NCBI GenBank assembly: GCA_903885555.1
Contig: CAISIV010000161.1
Span: 1-48,113 of the forward strand
DNA: 48,113 bases
Reading direction: 5' to 3'
Origin: an uncultured Hyphomicrobiales bacterium
Lineage (GTDB): Bacteria; Pseudomonadota; Alphaproteobacteria; Rhizobiales; Xanthobacteraceae
Below are positions 4,984 to 44,469 of this stretch, piece after piece; the first letter of the stretch is position 1; every line of letters starts with the position of its first letter. Both the position numbers and the translations under genes were made by a program. The notes beneath the pieces were generated by a model, which worked only from the letters and a program-made list of their open reading frames with translations, was not told the DNA's origin and did not search any database.

Positions 4984-6072
4984 ATGAGCAAGGCACGCGG
5001 CATCGGGCTCGGTATTATCGGCTCGGGACGGATCGGCACATTGCGCGGGCGGCTTGCCGCCGGCCACGCTGCCATCGATAGTATTACGGTGTCGGATCTC
5101 GATCCGGCCAATGCGGAAAAGCTCGCCAAACTGGTCGGCGGTACGTCGCACGGCGCCGACAACATGGCGGTGATCGACGACCCCAATGTCACCGCCGTGA
5201 TCGTCTCGACCAGCGAAGGCGAACACCTCAAGCCGATGCTGGCGGCGCTCGAGCGCGGCAAGGCCGTGCTGGTTGAAAAGCCGATCGCGCTCACTGTGCG
5301 CGAGGCCGATCAGGTGATCGAAGCACTGGCGAAATACAAAGGCGACATGCGGGTCGGATATAGCCGCCGCTACAAGGAGCGCTACCAGATCGCCAAGGAG
5401 CAGGTTGTGAAGGGCCGCGTCGGTACGCTGACCGGCGGCGCCGCGCGCGTGTTCAATTCGCGCTCGCAGGCTTTGGCGATGCTCAAGCGCAATCCGCACG
5501 CCACGCCGGTGGTCGACGCGCTGACTTACTATGTCGACCTGATGAACTGGCTGTTCGAAGGCCGCACCATCAAGGAAATCTACGCGCGCGGTCAGATGGG
5601 CGTGCTGAAGGACGCCGGCCACGAGGTGGCGGACGTCTGCTACGCCGTTTTCACCTATGACGACGGCGCGGTCGTTAATCTCGGCGTCAGCTATGCGCTG
5701 CCGGAGAAATATCCGGCGCTGGGCCATGCCGCGCGCGTCGAAGTGCTCGGCACCGGCGGCGTCATGATCCTCGACGACGATCACACCGACCAGATCATGT
5801 ATTCCGAGGTCGGCGTGCCGCACGTTTATTTGCCGGATCACAACGTCAACATGGTGTTCTTGCAAAGCGGAACGCCGGGGGATTGGGCGCTCGGCGAATT
5901 CTGGGGCCCGATCGCCAATGAAACCCGTGCCTGGCTGGACTATCTGGCGCTCGGCAAGCCTTGCACGCTGGCGACGGCGCAGGATGCGCGCGCCACGCTG
6001 GAAGCAACGCTCGCAATCGAACATTCGATGCGGACCGGCGTGGCGGTAACTCTGCCGCTCCGCCACGGCTGA
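4984..6072 (+). CDS. Gfo/Idh/MocA family oxidoreductase
   Basis: 362 residues. The N-terminal Rossmann fold carries GxGxxG (Gly13, Gly15, Gly18 in GIIGSGRIG) and the family EKP signature (Glu98-Lys99-Pro100). The C-terminal domain is the alpha/beta substrate-binding half. The family oxidises or reduces sugars, inositols and similar alcohols with NAD(P). In the usual D-x-G-x-H-x-x-D signature the His is replaced: here D178-A-L-T-Y182-Y-V-D185. That His normally acts with Lys99 in catalysis, so this enzyme is atypical. It follows the CMD-like gene by 4 bp and precedes a Bug receptor, suggesting a small catabolic operon. The substrate cannot be named. Confidence 0.88.
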   Translation: MSKARGIGLGIIGSGRIGTLRGRLAAGHAAIDSITVSDLDPANAEKLAKLVGGTSHGADNMAVIDDPNVTAVIVSTSEGEHLKPMLAALERGKAVLVEKPIALTVREADQVIEALAKYKGDMRVGYSRRYKERYQIAKEQVVKGRVGTLTGGAARVFNSRSQALAMLKRNPHATPVVDALTYYVDLMNWLFEGRTIKEIYARGQMGVLKDAGHEVADVCYAVFTYDDGAVVNLGVSYALPEKYPALGHAARVEVLGTGGVMILDDDHTDQIMYSEVGVPHVYLPDHNVNMVFLQSGTPGDWALGEFWGPIANETRAWLDYLALGKPCTLATAQDARATLEATLAIEHSMRTGVAVTLPLRHG

Positions 6073-6140
6073 ATCAGGTTTAGCTGAGCGAACGAGATAA
6101 CAGACCGCCACAACGGCGGCAGTTCAGGGAGGAGATGCGG

Positions 6141-7130
6141 GTGGCACATCCGTTCAATCGCCGCAGCGTTCTGCAGGGCGCCGGCGCTGTGGCGCTGGCC
6201 GCGCCACTGGTCCTGCGCGGCGCGTTGGCGGCCGGGTATCCCGACCGCACCGTGCGCATCATCGTGCCCTTCGCGGCGGGCGGTCCGAGCGACCTGACGG
6301 CGCGGCTGCTCAGCCAGAAATTCGGCGAGGCACTCGGCCAGACATTTATCGTCGAAAACCGCGGCGGCGCCGGCAGCAACCTCGGCACCTCGGTCGTCGC
6401 CCGCAGCGCACCGGACGGCTACACGCTGCTGGTGACCTCCAGTGCCTTCGTCGTCAATCCGGGACTTTACAAACAGTGCCCTTATGACCCGATCAAGGAC
6501 TTCGCGCCAATCACCGAACTGGACACCTCGCCGAATGTTTTCATCGCCACCAAGGCATCCGGCATTACGTCGATGAAGGAACTGGTGGCGCGGGCCAAGG
6601 CCAATCCGAATGATCTGAGTTATTCCCATGCCGGCGTCGGCACGACGCCGCATCTGGCCGGCGAAATGCTCAAGCTCGCGGCCGGCATCAACATGACCCA
6701 CATTCCCTATGCCGGCTCCGGCCCGGCGATGCAGAGCATCCTCAGCGGCACGGTGCCTTTGATGTGCGGCTCGCTGCCAGGTGCGCATCCCAGCATCATG
6801 AGCGGCGCGGTACGTGCGCTGGCCGTCACCGGCCCCGAGCGCTGGTTCGACATGCCCGATGTGCCGACCATGATCGAACTCGGTTATCCGGGTTTCCTCG
6901 CCGATACTTTCCACGGCATGTTCGCGCCCGCCGGCACACCGCCGGATGTCATCGACAAGTTGGTCAAGGTGGCGCTGAACGCTTTGAAAGATCAGGCCTT
7001 TCACGAAAAGCTGCGGACGCTCGGCTTCGACGTCATCGCCAATGGCCCCGCGGGCTTGCGCGACCGAGTCGCCGCCGAGGTGCCGCGCTATCGCGACATC
7101 ATCGCCAAGGCCGGCATCGAGCGCGTGTAA
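6141..7130 (+). CDS. Bug/TctC-family periplasmic substrate-binding protein
   Basis: About 329 residues with a twin-arginine type signal (NRRSVLQGAGAVALAAPLVL) and then the canonical TctC start YPDRTVRIIVPFAAGGPSD. Other family landmarks: ENRGGAGSNLGT, PDGYTLL, and VPTMIELGYPGF near the C-terminus. The family binds carboxylates, amino acids or their analogues for tripartite tricarboxylate transporters. No TctA or TctB gene is near, so it is one of the orphan receptors typical of this clade. Start: GTG at 6141 sits 8 nt after GGAGG (6128-6132); an in-frame ATG at 6135 is only 2 nt from it and is less likely. It follows the oxidoreductase by 68 bp on the same strand. Confidence 0.9.
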   Translation: MAHPFNRRSVLQGAGAVALAAPLVLRGALAAGYPDRTVRIIVPFAAGGPSDLTARLLSQKFGEALGQTFIVENRGGAGSNLGTSVVARSAPDGYTLLVTSSAFVVNPGLYKQCPYDPIKDFAPITELDTSPNVFIATKASGITSMKELVARAKANPNDLSYSHAGVGTTPHLAGEMLKLAAGINMTHIPYAGSGPAMQSILSGTVPLMCGSLPGAHPSIMSGAVRALAVTGPERWFDMPDVPTMIELGYPGFLADTFHGMFAPAGTPPDVIDKLVKVALNALKDQAFHEKLRTLGFDVIANGPAGLRDRVAAEVPRYRDIIAKAGIERV

Positions 7131-7993: not shown

Positions 7994-9208
7994 CTATGCC
8001 TTGCGTTCAGCGTCGAACATGAAATCGCGGCGGATCTGTACCGCATCGCGAGTCTTCGATAGGAGCATCTGGATGACCATATGCGATCCGTGCAGGAATT
8101 CCAGCTCCACCGCCGAAAGATAAAACTCCCACATCCGGCAGAACCGTTCATCGGTGATCGCAACGGCCTTGTCGCGGTTCAGTGCGAAGCGCTGCCGCCA
8201 GTGCCGGATCGTGTAGTAGTAGTGCAGCCGCAGGAATTCGGTGTCGGCGTTCCATAGTCCGTTGCGTTCGACCGCCGCCGACACTTCCGACATTGCCGGC
8301 GAATAGCCGCCCGGGAAGATGTATTTCCGGATGAAGGGGCCGGTGGTGCCGGGCGGCGACATGCGGCCGATGAAATGGATGAAGGCGTAGCCGTCATCTT
8401 TCAGCAGGCTGCGCACCTTGCCGAAATATTCGTCGAGATGCCCGATGCCGACATGCTCCATCATGCCGACCGATACGACGCGGTCGAATTGCCCTTCGAC
8501 ATTGCGGTAATCGGCTTCGCGAAATTCCACCAGGTCCGACACGCCGGCCGCCACGGCATTGTCGCGTGATACCTTGATCTGTTCGGGCGACACGTTGATC
8601 GCCAGCACGCGTGCCCCGGTCTGCCTGGCGATATGGATGGCGAAGCCGCCCCATCCGGAGCCGATCTAGATCACGCTCATGCCGGGTTTGAGATCCAGCT
8701 TTGCGGTGGCGTGAATGAGTTTGTAGTTCTGTGCCTGTTCCAGCGTATCGCGCTCGGGATCGCGAAAATAGGCGCAGGAATATTGCATGTTGTCGTCGAG
8801 GAAGAGCCGATACAGTTCAGCCGGCACATCGTAGTGATGCCGCGCGTTTTTCGCCGCGACGCCGACCGGGTTGGATTGATGCCAGCGCCTTAACGCGCGC
8901 CATATCCTCCGCAGCAATTTCTGCGAGCCGTGTCCGGCGAGACCCGCGCGGTTCACCGAGAACAGCATCAGCAGGTCATGGATGGTGGCGCCGTTCTCTA
9001 GCGTCAGGCCGCCGTCCATGTAGGCCTCGCCGGCGTTCAATTCTGGATTTAAGAATAGCTTGGATTCGAGGCCAGGGCGGTTGATGCGGAGCGTTACGTC
9101 AGGTCCCGGGAGCGTGCCGCCAAAGACGTGCAGCGTCCCGCCTGCATCGTAGAGACGCAGCGTTCCGTTGTTGATGAATTTCCTCAGGAGCCCCGAAAGA
9201 AATCGCAC
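7994..9208 (-). pseudogene. cfa: cyclopropane-fatty-acyl-phospholipid synthase gene interrupted by an in-frame TAG
   Basis: One continuous frame of 404 codons, the normal length of CFA synthases, from a GTG at 9208 to a TGA at 7994, but codon 181 is TAG (8666-8668). Upstream are the N-terminal domain and MQYSCAYFRDP with the active-site Cys. Immediately after the TAG comes IGSGWGGFAIHIA, the SAM-binding motif I, where the family has V-L/I-(D/E)-I-G-x-G-W-G. The C-terminal half (HFIGRMSPPGTTGPFI, IRHWRQRF) is intact. The parsimonious change is one substitution, GAG (Glu) to TAG. No other lesion is visible, so this is a recent nonsense mutation, a base error in the assembly, or a read-through site. 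The enzyme methylenates unsaturated phospholipid acyl chains using SAM. Confidence 0.85.
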
Positions 9209-36843: not shown

Positions 36844-37058
36844 CGCGTTCTGTGAACCGGCGAGATCTTTCCGCGGCCTGCCGGCGCCGTGATGCTCACT
36901 TCAATCAAATCAGCACCAATAGCCGCACCATTTGACGATGACGCGCCGTCCCTCTGGCGGTTGTCTGTCCCTGGCACTTCACCCGTGCTGCGACGTTGCG
37001 AACTGTGCCGTTTGGCGATCTAGTACTATTCAAATATTCCAGCACTTGGAGCGGCACC

Positions 37059-38399
37059 ATGGCGGCAGCGGACGCGGGTTCGAATTCACGGCGGCCCGTG
37101 AGCAAGACTTCGTCCGGCGCCGCGACCGAGGCGATCCTGCCGGCCGGCATTCCGAATACACCTTATCGATGGGCGCGCGGCGTTAAGGCCGGACGGTGGC
37201 TGTTCGCTACGGGCCAATGCGGCACCGACTACGTCAATGCGATGGCGCCGGAAGTTCTGCAGTCCGGCCATCCCTTCAACGGTCCGTCGCAATCGCATCG
37301 CGAAGCGCGGCGCATTTTTCAGAATGTCGCCGAGGTTCTCGCCGCCGGCGGATCGAGTCCAAGCGATGTCGTCCGCATCGATCAATTCTATACGTCGCCC
37401 GACGTGGTCGATGGCTATCACCAGACCCGGCGGGAATTCTTCAAGGGTCAGATCCCGCCGTCGACGTCCAACCTGCATCGGCGATTTGCGCGCACCCAGC
37501 AGACCATGGAAGTCCAGGTCATGGCGGCCGTTCCGGCCCCGAATTTTCAAGTTCAACATGCAAAGGCCGGGGCCTACAGAATTCATGCGAGTTCCGGATA
37601 CAGTCCGTCGCTGAGTGCCGGCGATTTTCGCTTCATTCCGGGTCAGACCGCCGAAGCGCTGAAGGAAGAAGACGCGCCGGTCGATCCGGAAGCCAAACGT
37701 GCCCACGGTTTGTGGAAGGGCACGCCCATCATGCTCGAGACCGATTTCATCATTAAGCGAAAGCTCAAGCCGAGCCTTGAGGCCGCGGGCGCGAGCCTCG
37801 ACACCGTGGTCAAGGCGCAGGTCTATCTGCGCGATCAGGCCGACATTCCAGGTTTTCGTCACGTCTGGGCGCAGCATTTTCCGGTTCAGCCCGCCACCAC
37901 GATCATCGCGACGGAAACGCCCGGCTTCATCATGGCGGAGCTTCGCATCGAAATTAATACGATCGCGCTCGCCAGGGATGGCTCGACATCGAAAGAAGTC
38001 GTGGCGCCGGTCGCGCCGCTGTTCGACGGCGGCACAACGGCCGTTCGCGCCGGCGATCTTCTCTTCATCTCTGGTCTCATGGCGATGCGCGACGGCTCGC
38101 TCATCCCGGAAGCGCAGACCGATGCGACGCAACCGTTCTTTGCCTCGCCCGTCAAAAGCGAGCTGCGCGACATTCTCGCTCAGGCCGACGCCATCTGCCG
38201 CGCCGCCGGAACGAGTCTGCACAACGCCGTGCGCATTCAGCAATTCCATGCCGACCTCGCCGATCTTCCAGCGACGCTGGAAGTCTGGTCGGAGGCGATG
38301 GATGGAATGCCGCTGCCGCTCTCCGCGGTCGAAGTTCCGTGGCAGGCAGTGCCGCAAGCGCGGTTGCAGGTCGATCTCTGGGTCTACATTCCGGATTAG
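37059..38399 (+). CDS. three-domain RidA (YjgF/YER057c/UK114) family protein
   Basis: 446 residues carrying three RidA-like domains in tandem: about 37-160 (GRWLFATGQCG ... DVVRIDQFYTSP), 175-305 (AGASLDTVVKAQVYLRD, then QPATTIIATETPG and RIEINTIAL) and 320-443 (AGDLLFISGLMAM ... NAVRIQQFHADLADLP). Ordinary RidA proteins have one domain and form trimers with the active sites between subunits, so this may be a single-chain trimer. The Arg that RidA imine deaminases use is not evident in any copy, so another activity (as in Rid4-7 groups) is likely. ATG at 37059 after GGAG (7 nt). It is followed by a Bug receptor. Confidence 0.82.
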   Translation: MAAADAGSNSRRPVSKTSSGAATEAILPAGIPNTPYRWARGVKAGRWLFATGQCGTDYVNAMAPEVLQSGHPFNGPSQSHREARRIFQNVAEVLAAGGSSPSDVVRIDQFYTSPDVVDGYHQTRREFFKGQIPPSTSNLHRRFARTQQTMEVQVMAAVPAPNFQVQHAKAGAYRIHASSGYSPSLSAGDFRFIPGQTAEALKEEDAPVDPEAKRAHGLWKGTPIMLETDFIIKRKLKPSLEAAGASLDTVVKAQVYLRDQADIPGFRHVWAQHFPVQPATTIIATETPGFIMAELRIEINTIALARDGSTSKEVVAPVAPLFDGGTTAVRAGDLLFISGLMAMRDGSLIPEAQTDATQPFFASPVKSELRDILAQADAICRAAGTSLHNAVRIQQFHADLADLPATLEVWSEAMDGMPLPLSAVEVPWQAVPQARLQVDLWVYIPD

Positions 38400-38494
38400 C
38401 ATGCGCGGCTTTGCCATGCGTTGTCCGCTGAATGACTGGTCCATATCTTGCTTCAGTATAGTTGGCACGCGTTGATGCCGTTGAAGGAGTTGAT

Positions 38495-39466
38495 ATGGTT
38501 TTGAAACGGATCCTGGTGCTGACGATCGCGTGCTTGGCGCTTTTGGCATCGATGCCGGCAGGATACGCGCAGCAATGGCCAAGCAGGACCGTGAAAGTGG
38601 TGGTGCCCTACGGCGTCGGCGGCGTGACCGATACCATGGCGCGTCTTACGGCCGATCGGCTTGGCAAGATTTTCAACCAGACCTTCATCGTCGAGAACAA
38701 ACCGGGTGCCGGTGGCGCGCTGGGCGTCTCCTACGCCATGAACTCGGCGCAGGATGGCTACACCATTCTGTTTATCGGCAGCACGATGTTCACCGTTCTG
38801 CCGCTGGCGCACGAGGTGAACTACGTGCCGCTGAAAGACCTCGTGCCGGTCAGCATCACCGGAACGAACGGCATGGTGATGGTGGTCGGCAAGGACGCGC
38901 CTTATTCGACGCTGCGTGAGTTCATCGACTACGCGAAAGCAAATCCAGGCAAGCTGACTTATGCGAGTGGCGGCGCCGCGACCAACAATCATCTCGATAC
39001 GGCCTATCTCGCCGGACGGGAGAAAATGGATATGGTCCATGTGCCGTTCACCGGCGGTCAGGCGGCACTGACGGCTGTGCTGTCGAAAACCGTCGACATG
39101 CATTTCGGCAATTCGTCCGACCTCGTCGAGCCGGTCAAAGCCGGTACGGTCAAGGCGCTCGCCGTGTCGACGCGCGAACGCATGCCGCAACTGCCCAATG
39201 TGCCGACGGTCGCAGAGACCGTCCCGGGTTACGAATATGTTGCCTGGAACGGCTACGCCGTGACTGGCGGCGTTCCGAAGGATGTCATCGATCGCCTTGC
39301 GGGAGCCTTGCAGACCATTGCCAAGGATCCTGAGGTCATCAAGATCTTCTCAAGTCTCGGTATTGAATCGGTCGGCAGCACGCCGGAAGAAGCGGTCGCC
39401 AGCTTGCGCAAGGACATGCCGGTTTATTCGGAGATGGTCGACATGGCGGGTGTAAGGAAGAAATGA
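38495..39466 (+). CDS. Bug/TctC-family periplasmic substrate-binding protein
   Basis: 323 residues. Sec signal (ILVLTIACLALLASMPAGYAQ), mature start WPSRTVKVVVPYGVGGVTD, ENKPGAGGALGVSYA and VPTVAETVPGYEYV. Third orphan TctC-type receptor of the window. ATG at 38495 preceded by GAAGGAG (6 nt); an earlier in-frame start at 38462 lacks SD. It lies 95 bp after the RidA gene on the same strand and may carry the same substrate class; it is convergent with the aroE-like gene (7-bp gap). Confidence 0.9.
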   Translation: MVLKRILVLTIACLALLASMPAGYAQQWPSRTVKVVVPYGVGGVTDTMARLTADRLGKIFNQTFIVENKPGAGGALGVSYAMNSAQDGYTILFIGSTMFTVLPLAHEVNYVPLKDLVPVSITGTNGMVMVVGKDAPYSTLREFIDYAKANPGKLTYASGGAATNNHLDTAYLAGREKMDMVHVPFTGGQAALTAVLSKTVDMHFGNSSDLVEPVKAGTVKALAVSTRERMPQLPNVPTVAETVPGYEYVAWNGYAVTGGVPKDVIDRLAGALQTIAKDPEVIKIFSSLGIESVGSTPEEAVASLRKDMPVYSEMVDMAGVRKK

Positions 39467-39473
39467 CCCCGCG

Positions 39474-40295
39474 CTAGCCGAGAATTCGACGCAGCGCCGC
39501 GGCATCGACCGAGCGCCCGGTGAACAGCTCAAACGCGTCCACGCCTTGATACAGAAACAGCTCATAACCGCCGAGAATGTCGACACCGGCCGCTTTGCTC
39601 TCTTTCAGGAAAGGTGTTTCGAGCGGCGTATAAACCGCATCGAACACCCATTTTCGGCCGGTGAGGGGAATGCCGGCGAATGCATTGCCGCCATACCCGA
39701 CCATGCCCAGAGGCGTGCAATTAACGAGGCCATCGGCGCCTTGGCAAGCTTGTTCGAGTGTCAGCGCAATATCCACTGACATGGCCGGTCGTGCGTTCTG
39801 AAGCGTCTTTGCCAAAGATTCCGCTTTCTGTGCGTCGACATCGAACAGGCGCAGCGACGTCGCACCCAATGCTGCGAGCGCAAACGCGATCGCTTTGCCC
39901 GCGCCGCCGCTTCCCGCCAGCGCGACAACGCCGGGCCGTATATCTCCGAAGCGGCCTCTGAATGCGGCGATGTAACCGGTGTAGTCGGTGTTGAAGCCAA
40001 TCGTGCGTTCGTGAAACAGAACGGTATTGCAGGCGCCGATGGCTACGACAGCCGGATCCTCGATCGTCGCGAACTTCAGGATTTGTTCTTTGTAGGGATA
40101 GGTGATGTTGAGGCCGCGGAGACCGTCAGCCTTCGCACGCGCGATAACTTGATCGAACGTTAGACCCAGGTCTTTCGGGACCAGCCGCTCATAGGTCAGG
40201 TCGATCCCGCACAATTCCGCCGCGGCATGATGCAGGTCCGGCGCGCGTGACGCGGCAATATTATCGCCAACAAGGCCTAACCGGATTTTTTGCAA
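39474..40295 (-). CDS. AroE-like shikimate/quinate dehydrogenase, probably catabolic
   Basis: 273 residues, normal for AroE. Catalytic Lys69 (LNITYPYKEQ), Asn90 and Asp104 (GFNTDYTGY) are present, with the nucleotide loop GSGGAGKA (128-135) and YQGVDAFELFTG near the end. The carboxylate-binding S-x-S-P of housekeeping AroE is S16-R-A18-P here, as in the SRTP-type quinate/shikimate dehydrogenases of soil bacteria. Start: TTG at 40295 follows GAAGG by 8 nt; another TTG at 40310 overlaps the GntR stop. It is downstream of, and coupled to, the GntR gene, opposite a TRAP-AroQ operon, so a catabolic role is likely. Confidence 0.85.
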   Translation of the reverse strand: MQKIRLGLVGDNIAASRAPDLHHAAAELCGIDLTYERLVPKDLGLTFDQVIARAKADGLRGLNITYPYKEQILKFATIEDPAVVAIGACNTVLFHERTIGFNTDYTGYIAAFRGRFGDIRPGVVALAGSGGAGKAIAFALAALGATSLRLFDVDAQKAESLAKTLQNARPAMSVDIALTLEQACQGADGLVNCTPLGMVGYGGNAFAGIPLTGRKWVFDAVYTPLETPFLKESKAAGVDILGGYELFLYQGVDAFELFTGRSVDAAALRRILG

Positions 40296-40306
40296 GTGAT
40301 CGGCCT

Positions 40307-41050
40307 TCAAACAGGAATGGCGGCTTGGCCGGTAGTCTTCCGGTGCTTGGCAATCGCGGGACGGCGTGACCCAAGCAAACCTGACGGCGTGTGCGACAAA
40401 GTGTAGGCGACGCAATCCATGATGTGGGTTGCCAAAATCGCCTGTGCGCCTTTGGCGTCGCGCTTGAGCGCGCATTCGAGCAATGCTTGATGTTCCTGCG
40501 CCGCGCGGCCGCGAAAAATTACGGCGATCATCAGATAGCGCACATATTTGTCGAACACCGCCGCATGCGAGGCCAACAGAACCGGAGAACCGCAAGCCGA
40601 CAGCAGCGCCTGGTGAAATTCCGAGTCATAGCGCTTCAAGACTTCCAAGCCTCTGACGTCTCCCGTCAACGTGCGCTTCTCCATGGACGCCAGCTTGTGG
40701 TGCGCGGCGACAACGCGGCCCTCCCAATCCATGTCACCCAGCGCGAAGGATCGCTGTAGAGCATGGCCTTCCAGCAGCAGGCGCAGGTTGGCAAGTTCCT
40801 TAAAGTTCTCCGCAGACACCGGTGCGACCTCAAACCCACGGGCGCTTTCAGCGACAATCAGGCCCTCCGAGGTCAGCCGGTTCAAAAGCTCGCGCAATGT
40901 GCTGATGCTGATGCCGTAGTCGTCTTTGAGCCGACCCAGCTTGAGCTTCTCCGATGGCGCCAGCCGTCCTGAAACGATGTCGTCGCGCAGCCGTCGGTAA
41001 ACCCGTTCTCCGGCGGTCTCGACCTCATTATATCGCGCTGTAACCATCAT
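40307..41050 (-). CDS. GntR-family regulator (FadR/FCD subfamily)
   Basis: 247 residues. Winged helix at about 13-75 (RVYRRLRDDIVSGRLAPSEK ... ISISTLRELLNRLTSEGLI), then an all-helical FCD domain with the metal/ligand residues in YDSEFHQALL, EHQALLECAL and ATHIMD. Such regulators sense the substrate or an intermediate of the pathway they control. Divergent from the TRAP operon across 102 bp that holds a perfect palindrome at 41064-41078, so autoregulation and control of both sides are expected. Confidence 0.9.
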   Translation of the reverse strand: MMVTARYNEVETAGERVYRRLRDDIVSGRLAPSEKLKLGRLKDDYGISISTLRELLNRLTSEGLIVAESARGFEVAPVSAENFKELANLRLLLEGHALQRSFALGDMDWEGRVVAAHHKLASMEKRTLTGDVRGLEVLKRYDSEFHQALLSACGSPVLLASHAAVFDKYVRYLMIAVIFRGRAAQEHQALLECALKRDAKGAQAILATHIMDCVAYTLSHTPSGLLGSRRPAIAKHRKTTGQAAIPV

Positions 41051-41063
41051 CCGACACTTCCAC

Positions 41064-41078
41064 GATCATCTGATGATC
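41064..41078. promoter_or_regulatory. putative GntR operator
   Basis: GATCATC-T-GATGATC, a perfect 15-bp palindrome with a single central base, 14 bp from the GntR start and 75 bp from the DctP start in the divergent gap. The form fits FCD-type GntR operators. Confidence 0.7.
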
Positions 41079-41152
41079 CTATTTTTGACCATTGAGACCG
41101 GACAATCAAGCTGCCTAACTCTGCATAGAAAAGTAATAACAGGGAGGACAGC

Positions 41153-42139
41153 ATGATCCGGATGAACCGCCGTTCCGTCTTGGCCGCGGGAACCTCGGCG
41201 CTCGCGCTTGGCGCCACATACCCGGCCTTCGGCCAAGCCAAACAGAAGCTGCGCTTCAGCAGCGCCTTCACCGAAACCGATACCCGCACCGAGGCCTACA
41301 AATCGTTCGCGGCTGCGATCAAGGACGATTTCGAGTTCGAACCCTACTGGGGCAACACCCTGTTCAAGCAGGGCACCGAACTGGTCGCGCTGCAGCGCGA
41401 TAATCTCGATCTCTGCAATCTGGCACCGGCCGACATCTCCAAGCAGATTCCGGCCTGGTCGCTGATGACCTCGGCTTACCTCTTCCGCGATGCCGATCAC
41501 ATGAAGAAGACCTTCAAAAGTGATGTCGGCCGTGAATTCATAAAGATGGCCAAGGACCAACTCGGCATCCAGATCATCGCGCCGGTCTATTTCGGTTCAC
41601 GCAGCGTCAACTTGAAGCCGGACAAGCCAATCAAGACACCGGCAGACATGGCCGGCATCAAACTGCGCATGCCGCCTGGTGAATTCTGGCAATTCCTAGG
41701 TGAATCGCTCGGCGCCAACCCGACGCCGGTCGCCTATGCCGAGCTCTACACCGCCCTGCAGACCGGCACGGTGGACGGTCAGGACAATCCCGTGGTCGCC
41801 AGCAAGCTGATGAAGTTCGACGAGGTGACGACGCAGTTCGTGCTTACCCGCCACGTCATCGCTTATGACGTCATGGCGATCCGTTCGAAAATATGGGACG
41901 CGATGAAGCCCGATCAGCAGACGAAATTCCAGGCCGCAGCCGAGAAGGCGATGGACGAGAACACCGAGCGCTTCAACAAGCAGGAAGTGGAAGTGCTCGA
42001 GTACTTCAAGAAGGAAGGCAAGAAGGTTTACGAGCCCGATCAGAATGCCTTCCGCACATTCGCGCAGAAGCGCTACGTTGAGAAGTACGGCAACGACTGG
42101 CCGAAGGGCGCGCTCGAGCGCATCAACGCGGTCAAGTAG
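41153..42139 (+). CDS. TRAP transporter DctP-family solute receptor
   Basis: 328 residues. Twin-arginine-like signal (MNRRSVLAAGTSALALG), then the DctP fold with the carboxylate-binding Arg172 (AGIKLRMPPGEFW) and the block AYAELYTALQTGTVDGQDNP. It binds an organic acid in the periplasm. SD GGGAGGA 7 nt before the ATG. First gene of an operon with DctQ, DctM and AroQ; the context suggests a quinate- or shikimate-like ligand. Confidence 0.93.
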   Translation: MIRMNRRSVLAAGTSALALGATYPAFGQAKQKLRFSSAFTETDTRTEAYKSFAAAIKDDFEFEPYWGNTLFKQGTELVALQRDNLDLCNLAPADISKQIPAWSLMTSAYLFRDADHMKKTFKSDVGREFIKMAKDQLGIQIIAPVYFGSRSVNLKPDKPIKTPADMAGIKLRMPPGEFWQFLGESLGANPTPVAYAELYTALQTGTVDGQDNPVVASKLMKFDEVTTQFVLTRHVIAYDVMAIRSKIWDAMKPDQQTKFQAAAEKAMDENTERFNKQEVEVLEYFKKEGKKVYEPDQNAFRTFAQKRYVEKYGNDWPKGALERINAVK

Positions 42140-42219: not shown

Positions 42220-42732
42220 TTGAATCCGAAGCTTGTCAATGCCGCGCGATGGCTCCGGCGGCGCGCCGAAAACGTTTCGGTGGCGCTGCTTGGCATCATG
42301 TTCGCGGTCTTCATCGTGCAGATTTTTGCGCGCTACGTGCTCAACAAGCCGATCAGCTGGTCGGAAGAAGTCATCATCACAACCTGGCTGTGGACGGTGC
42401 TATGGGGCGCGGCCTTCATCCTGCGTGAATCCGACGAAATCCGTTTCGATATTATCTATTCGCAGGTTTCCGAACGCACGCGCCGCGTCTTCACGGTGCT
42501 GACCGGCGTCGCATTGGTTGGACTCTACGGTCTGTCTCTACCGGGAGCGTATAGCTACGTCAGCTTCATGAAAGTGGAGCACTCGGCGGCGCTGCGCGTG
42601 CCGATCAATTGGCTGTACTGCGTCTTCATTATTTTCAGCGTTGCTTGCATATGCCGGTATTGCTGGCTGGTTTATCGCGCGGTGCGTGGCGACAAGTCAC
42701 CCGAAACCGATCCGGCGAAGCTCACGGACTGA
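42220..42732 (+). CDS. TRAP transporter small permease (DctQ)
   Basis: 170 residues, four membrane segments (about 20-38, 52-70, 91-112, 131-152) with the family blocks FARYVLNKPISWSEEV and TWLWTVLWGAAFILRESDEI. Partner of DctM. The start is TTG at 42220, 6 nt after GGGAG; no ATG is well placed. DctM begins 2 bp after its stop. Confidence 0.9.
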   Translation: MNPKLVNAARWLRRRAENVSVALLGIMFAVFIVQIFARYVLNKPISWSEEVIITTWLWTVLWGAAFILRESDEIRFDIIYSQVSERTRRVFTVLTGVALVGLYGLSLPGAYSYVSFMKVEHSAALRVPINWLYCVFIIFSVACICRYCWLVYRAVRGDKSPETDPAKLTD

Positions 42733-42734
42733 CC

Positions 42735-44030
42735 ATGCTTTCACCCTTCGCCATTTGCATCATTGCTATCGTCACGCTCGGCGCGCTCGGTTTGCCGATC
42801 GGCCACGCGATGATCGCTTCGTCGATCCTGTATCTGCTGCTGGCGGGGCTGGACCTTGGCACTGCCGCCGAACAGATACTCAATGGCCTGTTCAACAGCT
42901 ACGTACTGCTGGCCATTCCGCTCTTCATTCTTGCCGCCGATCTCATGAACATCGGCAGCCTGACGGACCGGCTTCTGCAATTCTGCCTCGTGCTGGTTGG
43001 GCGTTTCCGCGGCGGTCTCGGTCACGTCAACGTCATCGCCAATATGATCTTCGCCGGCATGTCGGGCTCGGCTATTGCGGATGCCGTCGGCATCGGCCGC
43101 ATCATTATCGGCATGATGACAAAGGACGGCCGTTACCCGATCGCCTACGCCGGCGCGATCACGGCCTCCGCCGCCATCATCGGGCCGATCATACCGCCGT
43201 CGATTCCGATGGTGCTGTATGCGCTGATTTCGGACACCTCCATCGGCTACCTGTTTCTGGGCGGCTTCGTACCCGGCGTCATGCTCGGCATCGCCTTCAT
43301 GGTGATGAATTCCATCATCGCGCGGCGGCGCAACTATCCGGTCGAGCCGCCGATCCCGGCGCGCGAAATTCCGAAAATCACCATGCGCGCCTTCCCGGCG
43401 TTGATGCTGCCGGTGATCCTGCTGTTCGGCATCTATGGCGGCGTCATGACGCCGACCGAGGGTGCGGCGGCGGCAGCGGCCTACGCATTGTTCGCCTCGA
43501 CGGTGCTATATCGGGCAGTGACGTGGCGTCAGCTTTACGACGCGCTGCTCGCCAGCGGTAAAGCGACGACCTCGATCGGCATGCTCATCGCCGGCGCCAT
43601 GATCTTCAATTATGTCGTGACGATCGAGAACATTCCGGCATCGCTTGCGCGCTTCATGAGCGGACAGGACTTTTCGGCGTCAATGTTTCTGCTCGTCGTC
43701 AACCTCATCCTCTTCGTGCTCGGCTGCCTGCTCGAAGGCAGCACGATCCTTCTCGTCGTCGTGCCGATCTTCATCCCGACCGCCAAGGCGCTAGGCATCG
43801 ACCTGGTGCATTTCGGCGTCGTCGTGGTCGTCAACATCATGATCGGCCTGCTGACGCCGCCTTACGGGCTGCTGCTGTTCGTGCTGGCCAACATGACGAA
43901 GCAGTCTTTGGGCGCGATCGTGCGTGAGGCGCTGCCTTTCATCGCTATGGCCATTCTCGTGCTCGCTATCATCGTCGTCGTGCCGGACTCGATCCTCTGG
44001 TTGCCGCGGCTCATGGGATACAAAGGTTGA
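42735..44030 (+). CDS. TRAP transporter large permease (DctM)
   Basis: 431 residues with about 12 membrane segments. DctM landmarks: NIGSLTDRLLQFCLVLVGRF, MSGSAIADAVGIGRI, GPIIPPSIPMVLYA, and LTPPYGLLLFVLAN near the end. Sodium-driven import of an organic acid with DctP and DctQ. The ATG at 42735 follows the DctQ stop by 2 bp. AroQ follows after 10 bp, so transporter and dehydratase are co-expressed. Confidence 0.94.
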   Translation: MLSPFAICIIAIVTLGALGLPIGHAMIASSILYLLLAGLDLGTAAEQILNGLFNSYVLLAIPLFILAADLMNIGSLTDRLLQFCLVLVGRFRGGLGHVNVIANMIFAGMSGSAIADAVGIGRIIIGMMTKDGRYPIAYAGAITASAAIIGPIIPPSIPMVLYALISDTSIGYLFLGGFVPGVMLGIAFMVMNSIIARRRNYPVEPPIPAREIPKITMRAFPALMLPVILLFGIYGGVMTPTEGAAAAAAYALFASTVLYRAVTWRQLYDALLASGKATTSIGMLIAGAMIFNYVVTIENIPASLARFMSGQDFSASMFLLVVNLILFVLGCLLEGSTILLVVVPIFIPTAKALGIDLVHFGVVVVVNIMIGLLTPPYGLLLFVLANMTKQSLGAIVREALPFIAMAILVLAIIVVVPDSILWLPRLMGYKG

Positions 44031-44040
44031 GGTCTCGCCA

Positions 44041-44469
44041 ATGAAACCGATTTACATCCTGAACGGTCCCAATCTAAATCGCCTCGGCAAGCGCGAGCCT
44101 GAAATCTACGGCAAGGCGACGCTCGCCGACGTCGAAGGGTTCTGCCGCGAGGCGGCGGGCGATCACGCCGTCGAATTCCGTCAGACCAACAGCGAGGCCG
44201 AATTTATCGGCTGGATTCACGAAGCCATCGACGAAGGCGGCGGCATCATCATCAATCCCGCTGCTTTTACATTCACGTCGATCGCCATCCTTGACGCGCT
44301 CAAAATGTTCAAAGGACCGATCATCGAACTGCATATTTCAAACATTCATAAGCGCGAGCCGTACTATCACCACTCTTACGTGTCGAAGGTGGCGACGGCC
44401 GTCATTGCCGGCCTCGGGACGCACGGATATCGCGTGGCCACCGGTTCGATGCTGGAGCTGCTGAAGTAG
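44041..44469 (+). CDS. aroQ: type II 3-dehydroquinate dehydratase-like protein with altered substrate pocket
   Basis: 142 residues, type II DHQase length. Catalytic residues kept: Arg18 and Tyr23 (GKREPEIYG), Asn72 (INPAAF), Glu96 and His98 (IIELHISNIHKRE), Arg105. Replaced: the His of NPGAYTHTS is Phe78 (NPAAFTFTS), the Gly is Ala74, and the second Arg of REEFRHHS is Tyr109 (REPYYHHS). In the family these His and Arg contact the substrate C4/C5 hydroxyls, so the natural substrate may differ from 3-dehydroquinate. Last gene of the DctPQM operon and opposite an AroE-like gene, so catabolic rather than biosynthetic. Symbol reflects family only. Confidence 0.85.
   Translation: MKPIYILNGPNLNRLGKREPEIYGKATLADVEGFCREAAGDHAVEFRQTNSEAEFIGWIHEAIDEGGGIIINPAAFTFTSIAILDALKMFKGPIIELHISNIHKREPYYHHSYVSKVATAVIAGLGTHGYRVATGSMLELLK

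Follow-up and report, generated by a model that had tools for sequence, protein, structure and literature searches.

The aroQ gene at positions 44041–44469 (+ strand) of the window, as we call the whole stretch of 48,113 nucleotides of DNA analysed here, raises a question: what is the task of a type II dehydroquinase that keeps its catalytic core and carries a rebuilt site for one hydroxyl of the substrate? The start codon of the gene is an ATG located 10 bases past the dctM stop, the frame is open throughout, and the product has 142 residues. It matches Pfam DHquinase_II (PF01220) with 173 bits, far above the cut-off of 23.3, which places it in that family. It also scores above the cut-offs of the subfamily models NF003805, NF003806 and NF003807; with the AroQ equivalog model TIGR01088, the score is 165.8 bits, under the cut-off of 169.85.

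The protein was aligned to the solved S. coelicolor enzyme. R18, Y23, N72, D85, E96, H98 and R105 of the window AroQ are identical to the residues found there, and F78 and Y109 occupy positions at which the S. coelicolor enzyme has His and Arg. An earlier examination of the letters without database searches (the sequence-only reading) had held that, in M. tuberculosis numbering, Arg19, Tyr24, Asn75, Glu99, His101 and Arg108 are kept and that His81 and Arg112 have become Phe78 and Tyr109; the alignment bears out both statements. We take Glu99 to be a catalytic position in that numbering. The same reading also listed a change of Gly77 to Ala74. The Ala is indeed present, but we rejected it as a signature residue, since Ala is common there in ordinary AroQs (11 of 27 accB-linked AroQ tree rows, the other 16 having Gly) and also occurs in the S. 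coelicolor enzyme. The M. tuberculosis numbers Arg19, Tyr24, Asn75, His81, Asp88′, His101, Arg108 and Arg112 match those in the available part of PMC6011038.

In that part of the paper, His81 and Arg112 are described as the main contacts of the C5 hydroxyl of the substrate, the carboxylate is held by residues 102 and 103 and by Asn75, and the C4 hydroxyl is held by Asp88′ of the neighbouring subunit. The two replaced residues thus do contact a substrate hydroxyl, as had been claimed, and it is the same one. The family's characteristic contact with the C5 hydroxyl through His81 and Arg112 is therefore missing from the window AroQ (F78, Y109). Because both residues bind this group, a single hydroxyl site appears to have been rebuilt, with the C4 and carboxylate contacts kept. 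The available part of PMC6011038 further relates a proposal that Arg112 contributes to the lowered pKa of Tyr24, the catalytic tyrosine; turnover may therefore suffer in enzymes such as this one.

We call an AroQ “F-type” if it has Phe at position 78; positions 108 and 109 then come out as results. The F-type sample was collected by similarity to the window AroQ and to a Rhizobium F-type copy, and the linkage fractions given below describe that sample. In a first sample, every match of at least 65.9% identity that covered both positions had F78, accompanied by Tyr at 109 except for a His in one locus (L053), and full-length matches of at most 60% identity combined Arg109 with either His or Thr at 78. 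Across the F-type, identity to the window AroQ drops to about 51%. The 78 distinct F-type copies come mostly from Alphaproteobacteria, with hosts that include Rhizobiaceae, Devosia, Roseomonas relatives and Paracoccus; a Paraburkholderia plasmid (L193) carries a copy with Phe78 and Tyr109 that is 51% identical to the window AroQ. A class-wide search of 190 genomes returned 30 loci, six of which were F-type, counting the window’s own. Two further genes were left out of the F-type count: a broken one in Pseudorhizobium tarimense (L081, near 8001–8409), which matches only in pieces, and a partial one in Neorhizobium alkalisoli (L082, 8001–8144), which has a gap at 109. In a plasmid collection, Klebsiella records with an AroQ match numbered 106; the 11 matches listed were each 48% identical to the window AroQ.

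Do the substitutions travel together? In 163 distinct copies, the residues at 78 and 109 form the pairs Phe/Tyr (72), Phe/His (6), His/Arg (77; “H/R” below), Thr/Arg (4), Tyr/Arg (2), Gln/Arg (1) and Met/Arg (1). Hence F78 is joined by Tyr109 in 72 of 78 copies and by His109 in the other six, never by Arg, and Arg109 is present in all 85 copies that lack F78. This pairing of F78 with Tyr or His at 109 is not chance. Comparison of the 65 tree rows (30 with F78, 35 without) revealed only three positions at which the residues of F-type and other AroQs do not overlap: 78, 109 and 108. The last is a third linked position that had been missed previously. It is Phe in 76 of 77 H/R copies, whereas no F-type copy has Phe there and 56 of the 78 have Ile; the window AroQ has Y108. 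Its adjacency to 109 suggests that it, too, belongs to the C5-hydroxyl site. No variation occurs at the seven catalytic positions in any of the 65 rows, the 30 F-type ones included. In two genomes that lack a type I enzyme (G018 and G030), the only AroQ pairs Thr78 with Arg109; a lone dehydroquinase can apparently dispense with His81, whose absence, taken by itself, does not conflict with the ordinary reaction.

The alignment set retained 127 of 153 rows after removal of identical copies and of those shorter than 115 residues. For the tree, it was thinned at 85% identity, and sequences below 120 residues and the broken L081 were removed. In the tree built without the two trait columns, 26 F-type rows, the window’s among them, make up a starred clade (99/96). 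The four further F-type rows (two Phe/Tyr from ABC operons and two Phe/His) stand apart on unresolved forks, and the tree as drawn needs three changes. A single F-type clade is not rejected (p-AU 0.324); thus, two origins are not established, and the expectation that F78 with Tyr or His at 109 marks a coherent set stands. The accompanying expectation, that this set is always linked to TRAP genes, does not: TRAP genes neighbour 67 of 78 copies, an ABC binding protein neighbours six, and five have neither in the DNA covered.

The operon of the window was delineated gene by gene. On the + strand, dctP (TRAP solute-binding protein, 41153–42139) is followed by dctQ (small permease, 42220–42732), dctM (large permease, 42735–44030) and aroQ; the likely ATG of dctM is at 42735, 2 bases past the dctQ stop, and its longest ORF runs from 42609. 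Divergent from dctP, on the − strand, are a gene for a GntR/FCD regulator (40307–41050) and one for an AroE-like quinate/shikimate dehydrogenase (39474–40310), which may start with a TTG at 40310 that overlaps the stop codon of the GntR gene. The divergent region of 102 bases (41051–41152) contains a palindrome, GATCATCTGATGATC, that is perfect over 15 bases (41064–41078) and is a candidate GntR operator. No palindrome is shared by most F-type loci, with loosely similar ones in L090 and L092, and a scan for sigma-70 promoters gave no match. The window AroE is nearest to the C. glutamicum quinate/shikimate dehydrogenase (3jyo; 1.1e-43), with Ala replacing Thr19. Immediately left of the AroE gene are genes for a protein with three RidA-like stretches (36996–38399) and for a TctC binding protein (38462–39466); one other locus (L034) likewise carries a TctC-type gene near its F-type operon.

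Genes for a dehydrogenase, a dehydroquinase, a dehydroshikimate dehydratase and uptake, the set expected of a quinate/shikimate catabolic operon, occur side by side in relatives; of these, the window has AroE, TRAP and AroQ genes. QuiC1 was not found in the window’s own genome (95% complete), in which the best match was 27% identical. The gene may be absent from this incomplete assembly, or 3-dehydroshikimate may feed biosynthesis. The small TIM-barrel protein discussed below (L049) had no relative in the same genome, in a search run without a positive control. An adjacent pair of intradiol dioxygenase genes is present in the genome. There are also two other AroQs, both accB-linked: one H/R and one Thr/Arg (on contigs C87 and C6 of G000; L001 and L002). 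The former, which sits on a long branch, may be contamination, and the latter resembles those of G007, G018 and G030.

What company does the F-type keep in other organisms? None of its 78 copies has accB or accC within 8 kb, compared with 65 of the 85 other copies, so no copy with the Phe/Tyr pair was seen in a biosynthetic (accB) setting. AroE or QuiC1 lies beside 53 F-type copies, and neither is within 8 kb of the other 25; 72 of the 78 copies are in loci of at least 9 kb, and six are in shorter ones. The gene order in Neorhizobium sp. SOG26 (L024) is TetR, AroE, QuiC1, GntR, DctP, DctQ, DctM, AroQ; in another common arrangement, AroQ is followed by QuiC1, and in Chelatococcus there are 4-base overlaps at both the dctM/aroQ and the aroQ/QuiC1 junctions. 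The SOG26 AroE is nearest to the C. glutamicum quinate/shikimate dehydrogenase (6.4e-71), and its QuiC1 (630 residues) is nearest to PDB 5hmq (1.4e-187), which bears the database name 4-hydroxyphenylpyruvate dioxygenase and which we take to be P. putida QuiC1. For a QuiC1 of R. leguminosarum (L139), the best NCBIfam model was 3-dehydroshikimate dehydratase QuiC, with 672 bits, under the 1200-bit cut-off. A 35% identical QuiC1 match belonging to the Met/Arg copy was not taken as QuiC1. R. leguminosarum WSM2304 has an F-type aroQ with QuiC1, an ABC transporter, Gfo/Idh, AroE and pcaGHCD, and Paracoccus has one with pcaG and pcaF. Loci of the Neorhizobium galegae type (L025, L027, L031 and L036) have TRAP genes and AroQ without AroE or QuiC1 nearby, and the surroundings of the Paraburkholderia and Terrarubrum F-type copies, to a distance of about 4.5 kb, are free of quinate genes.

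The partner enzymes were compared by their residues and their placement. The AroEs compared from beside TRAP-linked F-type AroQs keep T69, K73, N94, D110 and Q258 of the C. glutamicum enzyme, presumably its substrate-binding set. In ABC-linked F-type operons, AroE has different residues at 17 and 19, and this AroE subfamily also adjoins H/R AroQs (L186 and L197). In a quick tree (36 F-type rows, 7 unlabelled), two of the three QuiC1s found beside an H/R AroQ (L141 and L196) are nested among those of F-type operons, and the third (L150) groups with QuiC1s not located near any AroQ. One of these H/R operons, on an S. meliloti plasmid (L141), includes QuiC1, TRAP genes and a class III aminotransferase (5712–6947), for which we know of no role in quinate breakdown. 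Two operons hold two AroQs each: Phe/Tyr and Gln/Arg in L135 (2276–2719 and 7001–7456), and Phe/Tyr and H/R in L049 (1602–2036 and 4160–4618). Both also hold AroE plus either QuiC1 or a small TIM-barrel protein. An odd AroQ branch in Pantoea (L194, 4495–4944) and Aminobacter (L198, 4483–4932) has Tyr at 78 and, where the lid Arg would be, Asp; its genes adjoin those for DUF1028 and a glutathione transferase, with RidA too in Aminobacter, and its members are probably not ordinary dehydroquinases.

QuiC1 was also sought in whole genomes. For 43 F-type loci, 42 genomes could be searched, and QuiC1 was found at E ≤ 1e-80 in 39; it was absent at that threshold from G061, G094 and G097, but a fragment of the gene lies at the end of a G061 contig (L158). 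All 42 have at least two AroQ genes, and 37 have exactly two. We read the second AroQ of 30 of these genomes, and each was H/R. Four genomes (G058, G061, G084 and G006) combine an F-type copy with another AroQ that is not accB-linked. Among 60 relatives, including the window genome, an F-type AroQ was read in 17, with QuiC1 (whole, split or at a contig edge) in 14 of these; QuiC1 was present in 2 of the remaining 43, whose AroQs mostly went unread. No type I dehydroquinase was found among the 60.

From these associations, we infer the substrate, the reaction and the kinetic meaning of the F-type. It is fairly likely that the F-type AroQ acts as the catabolic dehydratase for 3-dehydroquinate in an operon for the uptake and breakdown of quinate or shikimate: the AroE resembling quinate/shikimate dehydrogenase, the QuiC1 and, in places, the pca genes of many F-type operons point to a breakdown of quinate, an acid common in plants, to protocatechuate. 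DctPQM would take up quinate (or shikimate), and the AroE-like dehydrogenase would oxidize quinate to 3-dehydroquinate. The F-type AroQ would then convert this compound to 3-dehydroshikimate by loss of water through the usual type II mechanism, in which Tyr23, activated by Asp85 of the adjoining subunit and by Arg18, would be the base and His98 the acid. In most relatives, QuiC1 would yield protocatechuate for the β-ketoadipate pathway. The predicted C5-hydroxyl site is rebuilt relative to that of the biosynthetic AroQ, with His changed to Phe, Arg to Tyr or His, and Phe mostly to Ile, and this rebuilding probably trades C5 recognition for other kinetics.

Several observations weigh against quinate. 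A fixed, joint loss of both C5-hydroxyl contacts and their neighbour is not obviously explained by drift in an identical task, and the two operons with two AroQs pair the F-type with a second form of the enzyme. The 25 F-type copies without AroE or QuiC1 within 8 kb, the three genomes in which QuiC1 was not found (the window’s, G094 and G097), the Ala at Thr19 of the window AroE, the differing residues 17 and 19 of the ABC-linked AroEs, and the Paraburkholderia and Terrarubrum copies with no quinate genes nearby fit the proposal less well. The sequence-only reading had suggested a dehydratase for a related but different cyclic acid. In that vein, the F-type could dehydrate a C5 variant of 3-dehydroquinate (a C5 epimer or a C5-O-substituted form) imported by the TRAP or ABC system, with QuiC1 still producing protocatechuate; QuiC1 expels the C5 substituent or removes the C5 hydroxyl. 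We rate this as a tentative possibility. In its favour, the three switched positions make up one site, that of the C5 hydroxyl (108 presumably, by its adjacency), the F-type co-occurs with a further AroQ lacking accB linkage in two operons and in several genomes, and the equivalog cut-off was missed by all three F-type sequences tested and passed by the one H/R catabolic copy tested. On the other hand, the AroE partners in TRAP operons retain the substrate-binding set, H/R AroQs, too, are found with the AroE subfamily seen in ABC operons and with close QuiC1s (three cases only for QuiC1), and we know of no abundant natural C5 variant of 3-dehydroquinate. A different acid is thus no longer the leading reading, many operon partners being those of quinate/shikimate breakdown. 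The broader claim, that the F-type is a separate specificity for C5-epimeric or C5-substituted 3-dehydroquinate and that many Alphaproteobacteria associated with plants and water use their TRAP/ABC operons to degrade a non-quinate cyclic plant acid to protocatechuate by an unrecognised parallel branch, seems to us doubtful. Two kinds of candidate substrate were set aside: 5-deoxy compounds, which are unlikely where QuiC1 follows because that enzyme removes the C5 hydroxyl, and chlorogenate-type C5 esters, since no esterase was seen by Pfam among the nine gene clusters common to at least 13 loci (rarer neighbours are mostly unannotated) and it is not evident that the substituted side chains would widen the pocket.

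Ordinary divergence, in which a redundant paralogue lost its C5 contacts without functional meaning, is improbable. Position 78 does vary among accB-linked AroQs (Thr in four, Met in one) and is Gln in one catabolic copy; nevertheless, Tyr or His at 109 accompanies F78 in every F-type copy, Phe108 in none, despite the low identities reached within the F-type, and Arg109 is retained in all other copies. It is more improbable still, indeed very much so, that the F-type has ceased to dehydrate any quinate derivative and serves as another lyase or in regulation: AroQ paralogues without the lid Arg exist, as in Pantoea and Aminobacter, but no F-type row of the tree (30 in all) deviates at a catalytic residue. 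The catabolic dehydratation of 3-dehydroquinate remains our preferred reading.

The F-type would be a new variant within a known enzyme family rather than a new kind of enzyme. We found no study of this branch in the literature searched, subscription journals being mostly outside that search. In rhizobia and their relatives, a set of the genes named “type II 3-dehydroquinate dehydratase” is probably catabolic, and their kinetic or substrate profile may differ from the named function. According to the available part of PMC6011038, type II dehydroquinase is a recognised target for antibiotics. A natural branch that lacks both C5-hydroxyl contacts, keeps the catalytic residues and resides in breakdown operons offers a direct test of the extent to which catalysis depends on C5 recognition.

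Structure models allow comparison with known systems. The DctP model (mean pLDDT 86.4) best matches 4pf6 (Roseobacter denitrificans RD1_0742), also its nearest solved structure, whose ligand is presumably KDO; the next matches are mostly sialic-acid binding proteins. The AroQ model (mean pLDDT 86.6) best matches 1gtz, with a TM score of 0.91. The F-type thus shares its fold and its catalytic residues with the type II AroQs of S. coelicolor (1gtz/1d0i) and M. tuberculosis (3n59); it differs from them in replacing the equivalents of His81 and Arg112 and the residue preceding Arg112. The nearest solved relatives of its AroE and QuiC1 partners are 3jyo and 5hmq, from which the window departs in its Ala for Thr19 and in the QuiC1 not found in its genome, respectively. 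The catabolic H/R AroQs of an S. meliloti plasmid (L141) and an R. etli plasmid (L196) are in the same kind of operon, with QuiC1s from inside the F-type-operon set; in contrast to the F-type, these proteins, 60% and 57% identical to the window AroQ, keep His and Arg and are accompanied by other transporter genes.
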